64,000 nt of DNA, taken from Candidatus Kuenenia hertensis (GTDB lineage Bacteria > Planctomycetota > Brocadiia > Brocadiales > Brocadiaceae). Of this stretch, positions 1-11,687 are shown in pieces. The stretch spans positions 1 through 64,000 of the forward strand of contig SOET01000023.1 of the NCBI GenBank assembly GCA_021646465.1, read 5' to 3'. The notes under the pieces are model-generated. The model was not told where the DNA came from, did not search any database, and worked only from the letters and a program-made list of their open reading frames with translations. A program made the position numbers and the translations under genes. Position 1 is the stretch's first letter. Each line of letters opens with the position of its first letter.

Positions 1-231
1 AAGCCATTCTCAGGGACCAGTTGCCAGTTGCCAGATTTCAGTGAGATAAGTTTTTTCATTTCCCTGTCATCTGGCCCCTGGTCACTGGCCACTGTGTTCA
101 ATCCCTTCTATTACAGGCATTTCTCAGCGACCAGTTGCCAGTTGCCAGATTTCAGTGAGATAAGTTTTTGCATTTCCCTGACATCTGGCCCCTGGTCACT
201 GGCGACTGTGTTCAATCCCTTCTATTACAGG
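1..231. repeat. Tandem 114-bp palindromic unit fused to CRISPR repeat fragments
   Basis: Two copies of a 114-bp unit lie in tandem (about 1-117 and 118-231). Each joins a hairpin-forming segment to 19 bases of the CRISPR repeat (99-117 and 213-231). In the first copy a left arm of stacked GCCAGTT motifs (15-36) can pair with a right arm rich in CTGG (69-90); the second copy repeats this 114 bases later with a few mismatches. The hairpin part resembles dispersed intergenic palindromes. It seems to have entered a CRISPR repeat at the old end of the array and then been duplicated together with the repeat fragment. The window starts inside or just at the edge of the first copy, so more copies may lie to the left. 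Confidence 0.75.
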
Positions 232-594
232 TCTTCGTTCATACCCCAATATCTGTGGCTTTTAAAGTAAAAAACAAGTCGCAATCCCTTCTATTACAGG
301 TCTTCGTTCATACGAGAAAGTTTTGGATGCAGTATCCAGAATTGTTGCGTCGCAATCCCTTCTATTACAGGTCTTCGTTCATACAAATCGCCCCTGAACA
401 TCTCCAACTGGAGCTGTCCAGTCGCAATCCCTTCTATTACAGGTCTTCGTTCATACGTCCAGGAGAATTGCAGAGGTAGAGGCCTGGAAGAGTCGCAATC
501 CCTTCTATTACAGGTCTTCGTTCATACGCGGTTCGCAGTTGCAGTTGTTGTTGTATGAGTCGCAATCCCTTCTATTACAGGTCTTCGTTCATAC
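99..594 (-). CRISPR. CRISPR array, 36-bp repeat, type III-associated
   Basis: Repeats start at 209 (first four bases diverged), 278, 349, 421, 492 and 559, each 36 bp. On the plus strand they begin GTCGCAATCCC and end CTTCGTTCATAC. A 19-base fragment is at 99-117. Five spacers of 31-36 bp separate the full units (245-277, 314-348, 385-420, 457-491, 528-558). On the minus strand the repeat ends in GGGATTGCGAC, so the last eight bases would give the crRNA 5' handle AUUGCGAC, the handle known from Thermus type III complexes. That and the degenerate repeats on the left both indicate transcription leftward with the leader to the right of 594, the same direction as the neighbouring cas genes. There is no cas1 or cas2 in the window. 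Confidence 0.95.
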
Positions 595-995: not shown

Positions 996-2147
996 TTATT
1001 TGAAACGTTCCTTTAATCTGTTCCTTAAATTCCTTGCCTGTTCAATAGTGAGTATTTCAATACCATAGTCTTTTGCTCTTTTTATCAGGGATTCATTTAT
1101 TTGACTTTGTGTAGTGCAAATGAGAGCCCGCCTTTCACCCTTGCCAAGCAATGTGGATATTGCGCCTTTTTTATAAACCTCATCCCTGACTATATCTTTT
1201 TCATCTTCAGAAAGGGTTTTGCACTCTACATAGTAAAAAATGTTATCCTTCAGAAATGCAATATCTAATTCGTTTGTGACATCGCTTAAATTTTCAATAG
1301 TGATATTCATCATGGCGTCATCCAGCATCCCTTCATTCACAAGGCTGTAAACTTCGCTATAAACATACTCTTCAAACCAGCCACCCGTCAAATAGACAAT
1401 ATCGTCTTTTATCAAATCTTTACTGATAAACCTGTCTTTTATTTCAAAACCATAGCTATTCAATATTTCTTTTTCAATATCTGTAATGTCACTATCAAAG
1501 GTTTCTGATAGACGATACTTTTTCAGTTTTCTTTTATCTTTTAAGTTTTCATACAAAAAACTTAATATGCCTTTTATCTGTTCATAATTGTAAAGTATCT
1601 TTACGGTGGAATCTTTACGGGAGAAAACCTTTGTTTTTATCTCTTCTGTTTTACTTTTATGCTGAATACTGAATCCATAACTGCACAGATATTCTTCGAG
1701 GTCTAACCTTTCTCTGATCTCGCTGGTTTTTAAGGGGTTTTTTCTGGGGAAAATCTGTACAAGTTCATTCTTTCCAAGCGGTATATAGTTTATGACGACC
1801 CTCTGGCCTATTCCCCTGAATATTTCATAAGCTGCAAGCGCCATAACCTTGTTTCCACCCGTTATATTAACAATATATTCAACTTCATTACCTGTTTTTT
1901 TGATGAGGCTTTCTATCTTATTCATACAATCAGTCAAAGAATCCTGGTCAACGGTTACCTTTTGTATATTTTCAGGATCGGGCAAAAGTTTTTTTAATTT
2001 CAGGGTATTTGCTATACACTCTCCCCTTCTTTCATTTTCCATCCTTTCCGTTGAAACAAACCAAAAGTCATCGGGGCGGTAATGAGCAGCAACGAGAATA
2101 TTGGGAATGGTTTGCTCGCCGATGAGTGAAACAAGGATTTTTTTCAT
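996..2147 (-). CDS. CARF plus PD-(D/E)XK nuclease, Card1/Can2 (DUF1887) type
   Basis: A 383-residue protein. The N-terminal half has a Rossmann-like CARF fold signature: a strand-rich start (KKILVSLIGEQ) and NITGGNK at 94-100, the loop that contacts cyclic oligoadenylate. The C-terminal part has a PD-(D/E)XK nuclease core: GGWFEEY (255-261), D295 in ELDIAF, and ECK (308-310). This order and length match Card1/Can2, which bind cyclic tetra-adenylate made by Cas10 and then cut single-stranded DNA or RNA. All expected catalytic residues are visible. It is the cas-type gene nearest the CRISPR array, on the same strand, 111 bases after hepT. Inferred role: second-messenger-activated effector of the type III-A system. 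The specific nucleic acid target cannot be read from sequence. Confidence 0.88.
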   Translation of the reverse strand: MKKILVSLIGEQTIPNILVAAHYRPDDFWFVSTERMENERRGECIANTLKLKKLLPDPENIQKVTVDQDSLTDCMNKIESLIKKTGNEVEYIVNITGGNKVMALAAYEIFRGIGQRVVINYIPLGKNELVQIFPRKNPLKTSEIRERLDLEEYLCSYGFSIQHKSKTEEIKTKVFSRKDSTVKILYNYEQIKGILSFLYENLKDKRKLKKYRLSETFDSDITDIEKEILNSYGFEIKDRFISKDLIKDDIVYLTGGWFEEYVYSEVYSLVNEGMLDDAMMNITIENLSDVTNELDIAFLKDNIFYYVECKTLSEDEKDIVRDEVYKKGAISTLLGKGERRALICTTQSQINESLIKRAKDYGIEILTIEQARNLRNRLKERFK

Positions 2148-2258: not shown

Positions 2259-2666
2259 TTATTCAATTAAAAGTTTTTCCATTTTATATACAAATTCTTT
2301 TATCTCATTGATCCTATTCTTCACAACCATAATATTCTGCCAGTTTACCTTGAGATACTGATGTATTGTCTCATTGCGGTGTTTTACCAGTGGTGCGGTT
2401 TTTAAGACGATCTCTCCTGCAAATTCATGGCAGGCAAGAATAGTGTCTCTGTAAGTATCCGGAATATTTCTTTTATTTTTCTTTAAACATTCCTCAGCGA
2501 TATCTACAAGACAGAGTATAATGTCGTTTATGCTCTTATCGAGAATGTTTCTTTTATCTCTATCAGCAAAGTAAAGATCCTTATCGACGCCTTCCAGCCG
2601 CAGCAAAAAATAGTCAATTGTTTCACGAATAAAAGAAAAAAGACGTTCTGTTTTCTTGTCAGTCAT
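2259..2666 (-). CDS. hepT: HepT-like HEPN ribonuclease toxin (DUF86)
   Basis: A 135-residue, mostly helical protein with the RX4HXY signature of HepT toxins: R97, H102 and Y104 in RNETIHQY. In the known HepT/MntA (type VII) toxin-antitoxin pair, R and H are the RNase active site, and MntA silences the toxin by adding AMP to the Tyr. All three residues are present, so the toxin should be active and open to AMPylation. It starts 27 bases after the end of the double nucleotidyltransferase gene, in the usual antitoxin-then-toxin order, and follows its second (MntA-like) domain. HEPN/MNT pairs are common in defence islands; here it sits between type III CRISPR genes. Confidence 0.88.
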   Translation of the reverse strand: MTDKKTERLFSFIRETIDYFLLRLEGVDKDLYFADRDKRNILDKSINDIILCLVDIAEECLKKNKRNIPDTYRDTILACHEFAGEIVLKTAPLVKHRNETIHQYLKVNWQNIMVVKNRINEIKEFVYKMEKLLIE

Positions 2667-2693
2667 AGAATAAATTCCCGGAATTTATTATCA

Positions 2694-3437
2694 TTATTTT
2701 ACGGTGATCTCTGTGTCCTTTGTGAAAATCCCACTCAATGCCCTCCTGAACCGTATTTCCTCAGTTTCGTGAAGCGCCCTGTGTGCAACTTTGTAAAGTG
2801 TATCGCTATCAGGTTCTATGAGATGTATACCTTTCAGTGCTTCCTGGATGACAAAAGGGGACTCATCTTCATCATCGAGCCTTAGAATAGACACATCCTT
2901 TTTTGTGGACATAAGAATTTTGTCAATTATTTCAACTTCTTCTTCCATGTCCTTTGCACTTAAGGACACTGCAAGATCGATATCAGACCTTACATGCGGT
3001 ATCCCTCTTGCGTATGAACCATAGAGAAGCGCAACAAGGACTTTGCCTTCTTTTTTGAGTTCCTGAAGGGTTTCTTTCAGCGGTGTTAATTCATTTTCTT
3101 CTGTTTTCATGTCCGAGCTTAATGGGATTTCAATTGCGTCCTTCAATATCTGATTAACAAAAGGATGCTCTCCGGTAAAATCTTCCGGCCTGAATGGATG
3201 CGGTTCTATCCTTGAATCTGTTTTTATTATAAATGGATTGACGCGCTGCCTGTCATAGAATCCGATACCGGTAAAATCTTTTGAAACCAGGGCAACGTCA
3301 ATATCGCTCCAATTGTTTGCCGTTCCCTTTGCATAGGAACCAAAAAGTATAGCTCTTTCTAATTGTATTCCGCTAGCTGATATCATACTGAGAAATTTTT
3401 TAAGCTTCTTTAATATTTCATCTGGCACAGCAGCCAT
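2694..3437 (-). CDS. Fused tandem MNT nucleotidyltransferases (MntA-like antitoxin)
   Basis: A 247-residue protein containing two complete minimal nucleotidyltransferase domains. Domain 1 (about 1-105) has FGSYAKG (32-38) and SDID (44-47). Domain 2 (about 110-247) has YGSYARG (129-135) and SDID (151-154). Both carry the GSx10DxD metal/nucleotide motif. Single MNT proteins are about 100-140 residues, so this is a fusion of two. Domain 1 ends in an NQILKDAIEI segment like the normal C-terminus of an MNT protein, followed at once by Met110, where a separate gene could once have begun. Domain 2 resembles MntA. The gene overlaps the end of the upstream HEPN gene by 28 bases and is followed by hepT, so each domain is adjacent to its likely HEPN partner. 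Inferred role: double antitoxin. Confidence 0.88.
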   Translation of the reverse strand: MAAVPDEILKKLKKFLSMISASGIQLERAILFGSYAKGTANNWSDIDVALVSKDFTGIGFYDRQRVNPFIIKTDSRIEPHPFRPEDFTGEHPFVNQILKDAIEIPLSSDMKTEENELTPLKETLQELKKEGKVLVALLYGSYARGIPHVRSDIDLAVSLSAKDMEEEVEIIDKILMSTKKDVSILRLDDEDESPFVIQEALKGIHLIEPDSDTLYKVAHRALHETEEIRFRRALSGIFTKDTEITVK

Positions 3438-3802
3438 CTGTATGTTTCCTTTATCTTTGAAAAGTATCTTTCAGTAAATTCCTTAGTACACGTCTGATAG
3501 AAGCCAAATTTTAAATCAGGATATCTTGTTTCCCGATTAAAATCATTAATATCTGCAAGAAAAGTTAACTGTTCTTCTGTCAGTTTTAGATTTGTATTCT
3601 CTGCCAATCTTAGTAAGTTGTGTATTTTGGGAGGTATTTCCTTTTTATCTCTCACATAGAATGCCTTAAGTACTTTTTCGATTACCAGATGTCCAATGAA
3701 TAAACACCAGTCATATTTCTGATTCTGGAAAAGTGTTTCTGCCACCTCCATGTCATGTGCAGCGGATTTGAGCCAATAGTCAATATGTGCGTTTATATCC
3801 AT
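3410..3802 (-). CDS. HEPN domain protein, partner of the MNT domain
   Basis: A 130-residue helical HEPN (PF05168-type) protein. It starts with the AAHDMEVAETL helix typical of the family, has HLVIEKVLKAF (38-48) as the conserved second helix and FNRETRYPD (88-96) in the fourth. This subtype lacks an obvious RX4-6H RNase motif, unlike the HepT at 2259. Such proteins are usually encoded directly beside an MNT nucleotidyltransferase. Here the next gene overlaps by 28 bases and begins with an MNT domain of the matching type. Biochemical role in this subtype is less clear than for HepT; substrate binding and nucleotidyl transfer have been proposed for the pair. Confidence 0.8.
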   Translation of the reverse strand: MDINAHIDYWLKSAAHDMEVAETLFQNQKYDWCLFIGHLVIEKVLKAFYVRDKKEIPPKIHNLLRLAENTNLKLTEEQLTFLADINDFNRETRYPDLKFGFYQTCTKEFTERYFSKIKETYRWLLCQMKY

Positions 3803-4123: not shown

Positions 4124-5906
<1,783 letters not shown>

Positions 5907-5945
5907 TTACAGTCAAACAAATCAGATTTTAGAGATTCATGGTAA

Positions 5946-6050
5946 CTATTCAGCTTTAATACACACCCCGTCAGCTACGCTGCCACCCCTCTTTTTAGAG
6001 GGGAAGATAGCAAGTCCCCTCTATCAAGAGGGGATTTAGGGGTGTGTTAC
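5946..6050. repeat. MITE-like palindromic element in the place of csm4
   Basis: Begins CTATTCAGC, then ACACACCCCGTCAGC, a CCCCTC...GAGGGG hairpin pair, and GGGGTGTGTTAC at the other end, so the two termini are roughly inverted copies of each other. The same element occurs reversed at 59197-59335, and parts occur at 2186-2250 and 12945-13023. It fills most of the 230 bases between csm3 and csm5, exactly where csm4 is expected. Confidence 0.75.
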
Positions 6051-6083
6051 ACGCTGCACAGGAGATACAAAATTGATTTCTCT

Positions 6084-6121
6084 AACTAATTTCAAAAACC
6101 AGAGTGTCATATGCTTTTCAT
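6084..6121 (-). pseudogene. csm4: Possible 5' remnant of csm4
   Basis: One base after the csm3 stop an ATG (6119-6121) begins a frame that closes after four codons. If one A is dropped from the AAAA run that follows, the sequence reads MKAYDTLVFEIS and then stops. This resembles the short beta-strand at the start of a RAMP protein, in the right place and spacing for csm4. The rest of csm4 (normally around 300 residues) is missing and a palindromic element occupies the gap. The remnant itself is a weak call, but the absence of csm4 between csm3 and csm5 is clear. Confidence 0.35.
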
Positions 6122-6122
6122 A

Positions 6123-6878
6123 TTATTCACTAACAAAAGGATCTAAGTCCTTAAATCTCGCCCCAATTACAGGGTCTAAAAACTCAAAGGCAATACGCCC
6201 ATACCCCCTGCTGCCACTTCCCCCGAGGGCGTCCATTTTCAGGAGTTTTAATCCTTTTAAAAGGACAGTATTAAAAAGGTCTTCATCGCCATCCTGCAAA
6301 ACCTTAAATGTAACAAGAAAATTAAACTTTGTCCCCTCCGGCACCCGCTCAATAAATCTTGGATCTTTAGCGGTGCCCTTTATCCTGTTGATAACATTTT
6401 CTGATTTTTCCTCCGTTAAAAGCCACCGGTTATCCCTAGCCTTTTTTTTCCATGCGTCATCCAGGTAGCAGTCGGCAAAAGAAACCCTCGTTGGTCCAAG
6501 AGGTGTTTCATCTTCTTTATCCGCACCGCTTGAACCGAATATCTTAAGGATTGCCTCACACCTTGTTTTTAATTCATTTTTTAGTTCAACTTCTAGCCCA
6601 TTATTTCTATCAATTTCTTGCAATGTTTTAGAAGATACTACATCGCCTTCCGTGTAAAACATCAGCCCACTCTCCATTTCCAGAAGCGACCGGACCTTGC
6701 CCTTTAACTAAGAACCTGGAATGTAGGGTTCTAAAGTGTGGGGATGCTTAATAACAGGGCTATCAGTACCTCCGATGTGCATTTCCATATTGCCGGAACC
6801 GATATGAAGACCGCTTTTCAGTACAAGAGTACCTTCGAGTTTTTTGATTGCCGATAGTTTCATCTTCTCTGGTTTCAT
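6123..6878 (-). pseudogene. csm3: csm3 (type III-A backbone RAMP) with an in-frame TAG
   Basis: Csm3 builds the backbone of the Csm complex and cuts target RNA at 6-nt steps. From the ATG at 6878 (RBS AAGGAGGG at 6884-6891, start overlapping the csm2 stop as ATGA) the frame reads LEGTLVLKSGLHIGSG, then GGTDSPV with the catalytic Asp (D39), then YIPGS. Codon 57 is TAG (6708-6710), exactly where the family has the second Ser of PGSSLKGKVR. The same frame continues LKGKVRSLLEM to a normal C-terminus with GGSGSRGYGRI. TCG to TAG is a single base change. Restart at Met 6677 would give 184 residues without the catalytic Asp. Either a nonsense mutation or a base-call error; TAG serves as a normal stop elsewhere (for example 32475-32477). 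Confidence 0.9.
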
Positions 6879-7309
6879 CTTCTCCCTCCTTGAGTGGATA
6901 CTGTTTCTCCCTTTTTATCGTAAAATTTGTAATAGCCAATAAATGCCTCGAATAGTCCGGCAAAAGCATCAAAATCATTCTTATCCTTTACCTGGTTTAA
7001 TGAAGTTGCAATAAAGTCTTTAAAACCCTTAGAAACCAAGTCTCTTCCCATCGCATAAGCAGCCTTTGCGTTGAGCATTTTGAGATATGGTAATATATTC
7101 TCAAAATCAGCAGGATTTGTTTTTAACATACTATCAAACCTGATTACCTCATCATAAAATTTTCTAATCTGACTTGGTTTGTTTGCTTTTCCCCTGCTTT
7201 GTTTTTGTTCTGTATAAATTTCCTTTGCCAGTTCATCTGCTCTCCCAGAGAATAAATCCGGATCAATCAGTCTTCTCCCTTTGTCTTTCCAAAAACTTTT
7301 TATTTCCAT
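6875..7309 (-). CDS. csm2: Csm2, small subunit of the type III-A complex
   Basis: A 144-residue helical protein. Csm2 subunits line the inner filament of the Csm complex next to Csm3 and help hold the target RNA. Family traits seen: a charged C-terminal helical core, PSQIRKFYDEVIRF (46-59), which is the most conserved segment, LPYLKMLNAKAAYAMGR, and FAGLFEAFIGYYKF near the end. It lies 15 bases after cas10 and overlaps the csm3 start by four bases, indicating translational coupling. Length is normal and no defect is seen. Confidence 0.93.
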   Translation of the reverse strand: MEIKSFWKDKGRRLIDPDLFSGRADELAKEIYTEQKQSRGKANKPSQIRKFYDEVIRFDSMLKTNPADFENILPYLKMLNAKAAYAMGRDLVSKGFKDFIATSLNQVKDKNDFDAFAGLFEAFIGYYKFYDKKGETVSTQGGRR

Positions 7310-7323
7310 TTTCCATTCCTCCT

Positions 7324-9951
7324 CTATCTTCGGTTATAGATAACTTGCCATACAGGTATTTTCATGGCGCTGGTGTAGTCTTCAAGCCAAACAGCGGCAT
7401 TTTCTGCCTCCTGAATTGCCGCGTCTTTTTCTGCGCCTTTTAAATGCTTGCCGACATTTCTTACCAGCGTGTACTTAAACAACGCCCTCCACTTCAGATA
7501 TTCCCAATCGTCAGCCTCAATGCCTTCCCCTGCTTCGAAAAGTTCCTTAAGTTCCTTTGCATACCTTGCCATTTCGGAAAATGTATTTAACCTTAACAAC
7601 ATGGCATTATTAATAAAAGAGTTCTCTATCCACGATTCAATGGTTTTCTTGATGTCATTCAATTTTTCAAACTCTTCCCATTTCACGGTCTCCTCAAATA
7701 GTGTTATAGAATTTCTCTCGTTCCCCTTGGATTTTTTTAAGGCATCTTCTGCCCTTTCCGAGATGGACGGAATGGGTTCTCCCGGTTTATTGACGCTTAT
7801 TCCGGCAGAAAGGGTAATTTTTTTGTTGCCGCAAACGTAATTTTCAAATGAATTTTTCAAAAAAAGCGCAAAATCAATAATCTTATTCCACGGTCCTATC
7901 AGAAAAAGGTCGTCCCCGCCTGCAAAGACGGTATAGATATCTTTAAATTCCTTATTTGTACTGAGAATGAAAGGAAGATAGACAGAGAAATAGTGATTCA
8001 TCTGCCTGCTCATAGTAGCCAGCCGTGAAAGGGTGATACGTTTTAGCCCGCAAGAAAAGATAAGTGCAAGATTATCCACATCTGCTTTTAGAACACCCAA
8101 TGCTTCTACACCGGAGAATTTATCTTCCTTTTTATTCAAAGACATCTTGGCTATATCGTGGAACATTTTGGGAGAATCTTCATTTCTCATGTCAAAGAGT
8201 TCATTTTTTGCCTTTTCAGTTTTATTGCCGTGCAGGAGGCGATTGATAGCCTCTTCTGTCTCGTCTTCCTTTGTGTAGACAGGTACATACCCATTGATAA
8301 ATTTTGCGGTTATTTCCTTTGCAATCCTGCCTTCTTTTGGAATTGAGATATCCCAGTACTTCAGAAGCTGCCCTTTATTTACAAGCTCGCTGAGTTTTCC
8401 GGTAACATCAAAAGATACTTGATACCTTTTAAAGATCGGCTCTTTAAGTTTTTTGCCATATATTTCAGCATCAACCGTAGTGATGGCAATTTTCGGTTCT
8501 TTTACGAGAAAAGTACCGATGTAGATATGATCTCTGCATATCTTACAGGCAGATTCATCTTTGCCAACGAGAACGTCACTTTCCACCTCTGGACTTGATG
8601 GCCTTTTGCCACAGAATGGGCATAATTTTTTATCCAAATCATTGTTGAACTGGTCAAGATAGTCGTCAACTACGCCGCCGTATTTTTCAAGGTTGATCTT
8701 GTTATATTTTTTCTTTTCCGACTCTTTCGCTAAAGAGTCCCACAGGTGGACAAAACCTTTTTCCTTTTCCTTTGATACAAAATCGTTACAAGCAGCCGCA
8801 ATGAATGATATACCAAGTGAGACTTCTCCGTAGAACATCCCGATAAGCCGCTTATTGATTTCTTCTTCAACTGCAGTGATCTTGTCTCTTGTTTCTTTTG
8901 TATTTGGCGCGAGGATAGTAAATTTCCCGGCAGCATTGAGAATAATTGACGAATTAGTTAATCCAATTTCTCTGCATAGCATGTCAGCGGCAAGCTCTGA
9001 GATAAGAGATACCGCAAATGATCTGCCCCGCAAAAGTTTGGCAACGGCTTTGTTTGCGCTTCCACCTTCCGTAAATATAAAATTTTGGATACCGTAAAAA
9101 TCCCCTGTTACAAGCAGAAATTTTTTATCCTCGTAGTCCCTGATTTTTTCAATCTCCATCGTTTTGCGCTGGAGATGATATAAGTAAATGGCAGATGCCA
9201 GGGCTGACGTTGTTTTTGAATGGTCGTAAAGGGAAACGTCCGGAACTACCTTGCCAACGGTAGCGGCAGGAATATGGGATGCGTAAATCATGAGCAGGTT
9301 ATCGAAGTGTTCAAACCAGAGCGGAATATGCTGTTTGTGATGTAGATTTTCCAACGCTGCTATAAAACCAAGAAAGAGTTCATCGTATTCTTTCGAAGCT
9401 TGTGCGCCATCCAACAGCATGTACTCTTCCTTATCTATGGGGAAAATATTTGAAGGCGATAATTCTTTGAGTGGATAGCGGAATTTGTACGATTCGAGGC
9501 TATCCTCTTTCCGTTGCTCATCCGGAGATATCCCTTCAAATAGTGTAAGAAGCCGTGTTTTTTTGTAATCTCTGAACCCTATCTCCTTATTGTAATCCTC
9601 AAACTCATCCCGGTCAAAACCACTGCTTACCCTATCCGCTATGGCAATTACCCACTGCAAGGGAGTAACTGGGTTGTGATGCCCGGCAGCAAGGTTCATA
9701 AAGTTATCGTCAAGCCCCCAATTTCCCTTGTTAAACTTTTTTGGTAAAAATTTTTCTATGTGGTCAATAAAGGCGGCGGTATAAACGGCATGCTTATGAG
9801 TATGCCTGCCATTGAAAAATGGTTGATATAAATTTGCATGATTATTTATAAACTCAGGATCAACATGGAAATGTCCTCTTGCCCGTTCTGCGAATTTACC
9901 TATATCATGCAAAAATGCAGCTATAGCAATTTTATAAACAGTATCATTCAT
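7324..9951 (-). CDS. csm1: Cas10/Csm1, large subunit with HD nuclease and GGDD cyclase
   Basis: An 875-residue protein, full length for Csm1. An N-terminal HD domain has H15-D16 (LHDIGKF) and HKHAVYTAAF, the single-stranded DNase centre. A Zn-ribbon with CPFC (about 443-446) and CKIC lies before the second Palm domain. GGDD (678-681, in FAGGDDLFLIG) is the catalytic motif that makes cyclic oligoadenylates from ATP when target RNA is bound. The RBS AGGAGG sits 6-8 bases before the ATG. The cyclic product would feed the two CARF proteins at 996 and 10542. In the complex Cas10 docks through Csm4, which is missing here, so activity may depend on a Csm4 encoded elsewhere. Confidence 0.96.
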   Translation of the reverse strand: MNDTVYKIAIAAFLHDIGKFAERARGHFHVDPEFINNHANLYQPFFNGRHTHKHAVYTAAFIDHIEKFLPKKFNKGNWGLDDNFMNLAAGHHNPVTPLQWVIAIADRVSSGFDRDEFEDYNKEIGFRDYKKTRLLTLFEGISPDEQRKEDSLESYKFRYPLKELSPSNIFPIDKEEYMLLDGAQASKEYDELFLGFIAALENLHHKQHIPLWFEHFDNLLMIYASHIPAATVGKVVPDVSLYDHSKTTSALASAIYLYHLQRKTMEIEKIRDYEDKKFLLVTGDFYGIQNFIFTEGGSANKAVAKLLRGRSFAVSLISELAADMLCREIGLTNSSIILNAAGKFTILAPNTKETRDKITAVEEEINKRLIGMFYGEVSLGISFIAAACNDFVSKEKEKGFVHLWDSLAKESEKKKYNKINLEKYGGVVDDYLDQFNNDLDKKLCPFCGKRPSSPEVESDVLVGKDESACKICRDHIYIGTFLVKEPKIAITTVDAEIYGKKLKEPIFKRYQVSFDVTGKLSELVNKGQLLKYWDISIPKEGRIAKEITAKFINGYVPVYTKEDETEEAINRLLHGNKTEKAKNELFDMRNEDSPKMFHDIAKMSLNKKEDKFSGVEALGVLKADVDNLALIFSCGLKRITLSRLATMSRQMNHYFSVYLPFILSTNKEFKDIYTVFAGGDDLFLIGPWNKIIDFALFLKNSFENYVCGNKKITLSAGISVNKPGEPIPSISERAEDALKKSKGNERNSITLFEETVKWEEFEKLNDIKKTIESWIENSFINNAMLLRLNTFSEMARYAKELKELFEAGEGIEADDWEYLKWRALFKYTLVRNVGKHLKGAEKDAAIQEAENAAVWLEDYTSAMKIPVWQVIYNRR

Positions 9952-10541: not shown

Positions 10542-11687
10542 TTATTCTATAATCATCTTGTCTTTTTCCAGCCGTAATCCATACTGTGTGCTGCCATAGC
10601 TACCCACAGATGTTATCGTATAAAAGGGGGTAAGGTTTTTGTCCCGCAGGCCATCTTCTGTTTTTCTTCTTACCTTACTGATAGCCTGCCGTATTATTTT
10701 TGCAGGGATTCCTCCCCGCTTCCCATACTTTTCATAAAGCTCCCGGTCCTTCGAAGAATCCTTGCCGAATATCCTTGCATAACATGCGGTAAAGGCATTC
10801 AATGCCTCCCTTCCCATCAAGTGCCCAATGGGGGTATAACAATCAACACATTCGAGACAATGCTTCCTTTCCGTGCGTGTACAGTGATGCAGCTTTTGCT
10901 CCATAAGCAGGATATAAAGGGATAGCTCTATGGGGGTGAAATAGATCGTCCTGTTCCCTACCTCAAGCGCCCTGTCACGCAGATTTATCTTTAGCGGTTC
11001 CTGCACCAGCGCCGTATCTAACCCTTCCTGTCCCTGGCGGACAAGTTCTCTGAAGTTATTACTGCCCATGGGTAATTTTCCCCTCAGGCGTATAAACGGC
11101 AGGTCTGCCAGTTGAACGCATGCCATGTCGGTGCTTATTTTCTTCTCCGTTCCGTCAGGCATCCTGCACGGTATCAGTTTCGGTTTTTTAGGAGGATAGA
11201 AAAAGGCCGGATTGCTCTCAAATTCAGGGCTTACAAGGACGTGATAGAGCTTATCCCATGGCCTGCCAAAGAGCTGCAAGGCGCCGCCAAGATAGAATCC
11301 CATGGTCTTACGGCCTCCGGCAATGGAACAATGAAGCCGCAACCCCGCATCCTCTGTTTTTCCCCTGATGAATGCCGTTATAATATCTCCGGTTAGCTCG
11401 TTTTCTTCATTGTTTCTTATATCCTGCAAGGGGATACTTTCATGTTCTTTAATCACAATAAAACTGTCTTCCGTAAAGGGTATTTCGGGGAGTTTGTATT
11501 CCTTGATAAGCTGTCTAAGAATGCCTTGCCTGATAAGCGCATCAACAATCAATTGTTTGCCGTAAGAGGTGGTTATGACATACAATTCCTTGACAAATAC
11601 AGGGGGCATGGTTTTTGAAAGTGCATAAATAGTTTCGGTGATAATTTGCGGCGTAGCGCCTGCCACGCAGATAAGAATATCTTTCAT
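10542..11687 (-). CDS. CARF protein of the NE0113 / Csm6-type ring nuclease family
   Basis: A 381-residue protein. The N-terminal CARF domain has ILICVAGATPQIITETIYAL (4-23), LYVITTSYGK and HCSIAGGRKTMGFYLG (119-134), the signature of the TIGR02584 (NE0113) family annotated as CRISPR-associated ring nucleases. These bind and some degrade cyclic oligoadenylate, switching off or tuning the type III response. The C-terminal half has a Cys cluster (C269, C277, C280, C283), possibly a zinc site, and a winged-helix-like end (SKVRRKTEDGL...STQYGLRL) reminiscent of OmpR-type DNA-binding domains. It overlaps the truncated cas6 by four bases. No HEPN RNase motif is seen, so a regulatory or ring-nuclease role is more likely than an RNase effector. 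Confidence 0.82.
   Translation of the reverse strand: MKDILICVAGATPQIITETIYALSKTMPPVFVKELYVITTSYGKQLIVDALIRQGILRQLIKEYKLPEIPFTEDSFIVIKEHESIPLQDIRNNEENELTGDIITAFIRGKTEDAGLRLHCSIAGGRKTMGFYLGGALQLFGRPWDKLYHVLVSPEFESNPAFFYPPKKPKLIPCRMPDGTEKKISTDMACVQLADLPFIRLRGKLPMGSNNFRELVRQGQEGLDTALVQEPLKINLRDRALEVGNRTIYFTPIELSLYILLMEQKLHHCTRTERKHCLECVDCYTPIGHLMGREALNAFTACYARIFGKDSSKDRELYEKYGKRGGIPAKIIRQAISKVRRKTEDGLRDKNLTPFYTITSVGSYGSTQYGLRLEKDKMIIE

Follow-up and report, generated by a model that had tools for sequence, protein, structure and literature searches.

HEPN/MNT toxin-antitoxin modules have been divided into two classes: the HEPN protein of Class I belongs to PF01934 or PF08780 and carries the RX4HXY motif, and that of Class II belongs to PF05168, does not have this motif and contains a conserved Tyr (Yao 2020, PMC7641770). 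In the type VII toxin-antitoxin system of Shewanella oneidensis, MntA, a single-domain protein of less than 150 aa whose third catalytic acid is D71, adds three AMPs to Tyr104 of HepT, its only toxin (Yao 2020, PMC7641770). Class II antitoxins retain GSX10DXD and their toxins retain the conserved Tyr; as of Yao 2020 (PMC7641770), the toxicity and AMPylation of Class II HEPN proteins had received no experimental test. In several PF05168 HEPN domains the His of the motif is replaced by Asp, and a conserved His is found elsewhere (Anantharaman 2013, PMC3710099).

More than one MNT gene may occur at a single locus. A tandem MNT(II)-MNT(I)-HEPN operon was described in Geobacillus (PMC6929052) and clusters with several MNT and HEPN genes in crenarchaea (PMC3710099), the MNT genes being separate in both cases. 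Toxin-antitoxin systems may also be tied to CRISPR-Cas: the type VIII system CreTA, which guards type I-B CRISPR, consists of an RNA toxin and a crRNA-like antitoxin that requires Cas proteins (PMC12737573).

Here we describe a locus of the anammox bacterium Candidatus Kuenenia hertensis in which HEPN/MNT pairs of both classes share a single MNT polypeptide. The window is the whole stretch of DNA that was analyzed, 64,000 nucleotides long (assembly GCA_021646465.1, contig SOET01000023.1, positions 1-64,000); genome G009, one of the relatives compared below, comes from the same family.

Organization of the Cassette

The original prediction placed a HEPN/double-MNT/HepT cassette between csm5 and a Card1-like nuclease, and the open reading frames, Pfam matches and overlaps confirm it. 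The order of transcription on the minus strand is csm1, csm2, csm3 (with a stop codon), csm5, HEPN1, the fused MNT1-MNT2 gene, HepT, the Card1-like nuclease and the CRISPR array. The features are as follows:

3410..3802, minus strand: HEPN1, 130 aa, Class II HEPN (PF05168, 5.4e-20), predicted to be the toxin paired with MNT domain 1
2694..3437, minus strand: gene for the fused MNT1-MNT2 protein, 247 aa, a predicted antitoxin with two adenylyltransferase domains
3126..3437, minus strand: MNT domain 1, residues 1-104; GSx10DxD at 33-47; candidate third acid E78
3111..3125, minus strand: linker, residues 105-109 (PLSSD); pLDDT below 50 at residues 108-114 of the model
2697..3110, minus strand: MNT domain 2, residues 110-247, from the retained Met110; GSx10DxD at 140-154; candidate third acid D181
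2259..2666, minus strand: HepT, 135 aa, Class I HEPN, predicted RNase toxin; RX4HXY at residues 97-104 (2355-2378), with Tyr104
996..2147, minus strand: Card1-like CARF nuclease (PF23400, PF09002)
4293..5906, minus strand: csm5 with a C-terminal extension common to cmr6 of relatives
6123..6878, minus strand: csm3, with an in-frame TAG at 6708-6710
6875..9951, minus strand: csm2 and csm1 (cas10, GGDD present)
213..594, no strand assigned: CRISPR array of about 6-7 repeats

HEPN1, the 247-aa protein and HepT are encoded by three open reading frames, all of them intact. The first two overlap by 28 nt, and 27 nt separate the stop codon of the fused gene from the start of hepT. Upstream of csm1 and outside the cassette, a CRISPR-associated protein of the Cas_NE0113 family (PF09623) is encoded at 10542-11687.

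The Fused MNT Protein

Pfam matches PF18765/PF01909 in two separate stretches of the 247-aa protein, and the AlphaFold model (mean pLDDT 76) contains two MNT folds with a low-confidence linker between them. Both GSx10DxD motifs that had been proposed are present; the earlier coordinates of the second, 130-154, were wrong, and it occupies residues 140-154. The motif residues of domain 1 are conserved in the alignment. As a whole, the protein scores 77.2 bits against the NCBIfam MntA_antitoxin model NF047752 (cut-off 60), with the best stretch at 128-229, and structure comparison returned 7bxo, the MntA of the HepT/MntA complex, as the top PDB match. E78 and D181 lie on the strand that is expected to bear the third catalytic acid, or at its edge, and we infer this role for them from the model. 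The PADLOC candidate families PDC-S09 and PDC-M05A were considered and set aside, as they match merely as generic MNT.

Domain 1 is 66-75% identical to the stand-alone MNT1 proteins of relatives, and domain 2 is 67-75% identical to their stand-alone MNT2 proteins, whose own start aligns near Met110. With orthologues about 65-75% identical in related genomes, the domains are not chance products. No ribosome-binding site is visible upstream of Met110, and separate translation of MNT2 from this codon is therefore thought unlikely.

Two Different Predicted HEPN Partners

HepT matches PF01934 with 32.5 bits (cut-off 23.5, E 7.6e-8), as expected of a Class I HEPN protein. Its RX4HXY motif is, as predicted, intact (RNETIHQY, residues 97-104, Tyr at 104) and is found in 4/4 aligned sequences; the protein is 83% identical to HepT of G016. 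Its score against the NCBIfam HepT equivalog is 44.6 bits, under the cut-off of 60, which makes it a divergent member by this yardstick. The similarity to the S. oneidensis system extends to Tyr104 within RX4HXY, the GSX10DXD motif of the MNT partner (domain 2), the antitoxin gene coming first, and 7bxo as the closest MNT fold (PMC7641770). Unlike MntA, which is a stand-alone protein of less than 150 aa, the antitoxin is here one half of a 247-aa double protein; in relatives the MNTs are stand-alone.

HEPN1 has no RX4-6H RNase motif. It contains EX3K, IHN and R93-Y94-x-D96, and among the 22 HEPN1-type sequences E42, K46, H61 and Y94 are invariant (22/22), with R93 and D96 nearly so. The protein has a HEPN fold, with 1wol, 1ufb and 2hsb as the best PDB matches in structure comparison; a PDB search by sequence gave no match for either HEPN1 or HepT. 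Its PF05168 membership, the missing RX4HXY and the conserved Tyr94, together with GSX10DXD in the adjacent MNT domain 1, are the features of Class II modules (PF05168 and PF01909, PMC7641770). Judged by their sequences, HEPN1 and MNT1 are thus a Class II pair and MNT2 and HepT a Class I pair. What distinguishes this locus from other Class II modules (PMC7641770) is that its Class II MNT forms one protein with a Class I MNT.

A perfect 10-bp inverted repeat (AATAAATTCC-C-GGAATTTATT) is found at 2668-2690, between the stop codon of the fused antitoxin and the start of hepT. It might limit hepT translation; the palindrome is not retained in G016 or G018.

Origin of the Fusion

It was originally proposed that the antitoxins of two neighboring pairs had fused, and this is strongly supported by the layouts found in relatives. 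HEPN1-MNT1 occurs as a lone pair with HEPN1 upstream in five genomes (G713, G712, G006, G007 and G032; loci L093, L094, L047, L049 and L052), and MNT2-HepT as a lone pair with MNT2 upstream in two (G016 and G014; loci L039 and L043). In the single-contig genome G018 the two pairs are adjacent and unfused, in the order of the window: the end of cmr6, a HEPN1 remnant, MNT1, about 310 bp, MNT2, HepT and Card1. In G024 the beginning of MNT2 overlaps MNT1 in another frame (...GATGATGACAGTGATGGCTGATGA...). The junction in the window, measured from the shared GAAATCCC to ATGAAA, is 19 nt shorter than that in G024, which brings MNT2 into the MNT1 frame; the MNT2 start codon survives as Met110 and about five linker residues are added. 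The overlapping-frame arrangement is, from these alignments, the likely pre-fusion layout. Since MNT2 is truncated and HepT is absent in G024, this genome provides a model of that layout and not an ancestor. The sequence of events would be that HEPN1-MNT1 (Class II) and MNT2-HepT (Class I) became head-to-tail neighbors, after which a small change of length at the junction put the two MNT frames in register and may have created one bifunctional antitoxin.

The same comparison bears on whether the fused frame could be an assembly or sequencing error that conceals overlapping frames of the G024 kind. A one-base indel at the junction would part the frames, and the csm3 stop lies on the same contig. 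The junction differs from that of G024, however, by a net 19 nt and not by one base, it has no long homopolymer, and the domains are otherwise clean, so that we regard an error as very improbable. There is also a slim chance that the MNT domains, which have fold and motifs in common, act on each other's toxins, or that one merely stabilizes or doses the other; against this, the two belong to different subfamilies and have different neighbors in the relatives seen.

A near-fusion is found at the same place in G017 (L046 6969-8354), where a deletion has brought the end of csm5 next to an MNT1 remnant, the two being in frame and separated by one stop codon.

Distribution and Maintenance

No other fused copy was found in 33 genomes of the family, 62 Brocadiales genomes, a sample of 392 Planctomycetota or 296 Bacteroidetes-centered genomes (from the phylum to which the L012 genome belongs); these sets overlap. 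GTDB contigs contained six relatives, none of them fused, and no relatives were found in viral contigs, phages or plasmids. A candidate second fusion in G172, matching over residues 11-150, turned out to be an ordinary HEPN1-MNT1 pair. A stop or frameshift between the domains of close relatives, or single pairs in all homologues, had been named in the original prediction as the mark of a local accident, and with no fused relative in the sets searched, the fusion is local. It is real, intact and a single instance in the genomes searched, and the double antitoxin is a novel variation on the known type VII HEPN/MNT theme.

Compared pairwise with orthologues, and where dS is measurable, MNT1 has a dN/dS of about 0.09-0.12 and MNT2 one of about 0.09-0.18, values that span the whole time since divergence and do not resolve selection after the fusion; with a single fused example, no comparison shows such selection. 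For HEPN1 and HepT, pairwise dN is 0.10-0.16 and dS is high or saturated. Nothing suggests decay of the toxins of the window itself, which looks to be one of the few loci with all units apparently intact. Among relatives, HEPN1 carries an internal deletion and a stop codon in G018 and G009 and a stop codon in G003, and the G010 copy is truncated; the HepT gene of G018 contains a frameshift, that of G029 is truncated and that of G013 is shortened. Truncated MNTs also occur. Because the toxins at this locus are so often broken in relatives, the whole cassette may be heading for decay.

An alternative is that the fusion arose by accident and is neutral, in a region with much toxin-antitoxin turnover; the antitoxin domains would then work separately, or one of them would be dispensable, and their joining would add nothing. 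In favor of this are the uniqueness of the fusion among the 62 Brocadiales genomes and in the wider samples, the deletion that produced the near-fusion in G017, and the many decayed toxins and truncated MNTs of relatives. The four functional units are nevertheless intact in the window and both MNT domains have low dN/dS against relatives, and we consider a neutral accident unlikely, if a serious alternative.

Association with CRISPR-Cas Loci

Of 17 Brocadiaceae genomes that contain relatives of MNT1 or MNT2, 15 have these genes no more than several kb away from a CRISPR array or cas genes, compared with 1 of the 17 other MNT regions of the genome from which the window comes (Fisher p ~2e-6, a value that ignores shared ancestry among loci partly related by descent). 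Three further Brocadiales genomes also have such relatives at CRISPR loci, and two short contigs are uninformative. The association of this MNT lineage with CRISPR-Cas loci is real. A HEPN-MNT pair of Aphanizomenon flos-aquae, described by Songailiene and co-workers in 2020, is likewise said to adjoin a CRISPR-Cas locus; that pair is reportedly a single, unfused Class I pair and the locus is of another type, I-D. An ATP-sensing role was reportedly proposed for it.

The original prediction went further and suggested that the cassette works together with the type III module or protects it; the genomic association stands, and this functional part is not supported at the locus itself. The csm3 gene is broken by the TAG codon (PYIPGS*LKGK), csm4 is absent between csm3 and csm5 (5906-6123), and a csm4 query gave no match elsewhere in the genome. 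With csm3 broken and csm4 lost, the local type III-A effector looks defective, cas10, csm2, csm5 and Card1 being intact, and for this reason we do not adopt as the main reading that the cassette tightly guards this module. Conversely, cmr genes are present beside a broken HEPN1 in G018, G009, G003 and G010. Neither of the two systems thus needs the other, and they decay independently, favoring co-residence or recent recruitment over strict partnership. CreTA also resides inside a CRISPR-Cas locus (PMC12737573), but its dependence on Cas proteins is not seen for the cassette of the window, which has a protein antitoxin and intact toxins next to a defective effector.

It could still be argued that the cassette is a working type III accessory, a HEPN back-up that fires when infection or the synthesis of cyclic oligoadenylates drains ATP and AMPylation stops. 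The recurrent location at cas genes and CRISPR arrays and the ATP-sensing role said to have been proposed for the A. flos-aquae pair agree with this idea. The intact toxin-antitoxin genes beside the broken csm module, the dead HEPN1 genes beside cmr and the partly shared descent of the loci speak against it, and make it distinctly improbable; it is doubtful that the cassette and the type III module of this locus are closely connected in function.

Several other features of type III loci in these genomes were observed. The C-terminal ~107 residues of csm5 in the window (4293-4620) share 71% identity with the cmr6 C-terminus of relatives (L011 4527-4841; L040 6998-7312), and a csm5-like remnant precedes HEPN1 in relatives, signs that III-A and III-B loci have recombined. 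Contig C31 of G000 (L090 4358-9532, 11662-13962) encodes a 1274-aa multi-RAMP protein and a 434-aa neighbor, next to a zf-HC2 protein, a possible sigma-like protein and an RT-Cas1-like fusion; no Cas10 was seen in this stretch, which is possibly type III-E-like. A second type III module on contig C42 of the same genome (L091) contains Cas10-like, several RAMP, CARF-nuclease-like and adenosine-deaminase-like proteins, the last of which has no Pfam match and is a possible relative of Cad1.

Proposed Mode of Action and Implications

By analogy with the families involved, the HEPN proteins would be toxic, the MNT domains would AMPylate them, and their control would be joint. Like MntA, domain 2 probably attaches AMP to HepT at Tyr104 and blocks the predicted RNase, and domain 1 probably silences HEPN1, perhaps via the invariant Tyr94. 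A single chain would fix equal dosing of both antitoxin activities. With both domains on one chain, the two toxins would come under common control and would be set free at the same time when antitoxin or ATP is short; control of both predicted toxins by one chain is plausible. We give a probability of roughly 0.6 to the explanation as a whole, namely that the antitoxins of two pairs fused into one bifunctional antitoxin that acts on two HEPN partners by AMPylation. The more specific proposal, that in this CRISPR-linked anammox HEPN/MNT lineage one bifunctional adenylyltransferase antitoxin silences a Class I RNase HepT and a Class II HEPN simultaneously, with coupled release, is more tentative and falls a little short of an even chance.

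If read correctly, the locus is a natural construct that ties Class I and Class II HEPN/MNT pairs to one polypeptide, and, if the proposed mode of action is true, it would provide a direct handle on the question whether HEPN proteins of Class II are toxins and are kept silent by AMPylation. Its value lies in being one natural construct for the study of Class II HEPN function and dual control, and not in wide occurrence. The recurrence of this HEPN/MNT lineage at CRISPR-Cas loci of Brocadiales, where toxins and effectors decay independently, bears on whether toxin-antitoxin systems are partners or passengers of CRISPR-Cas.
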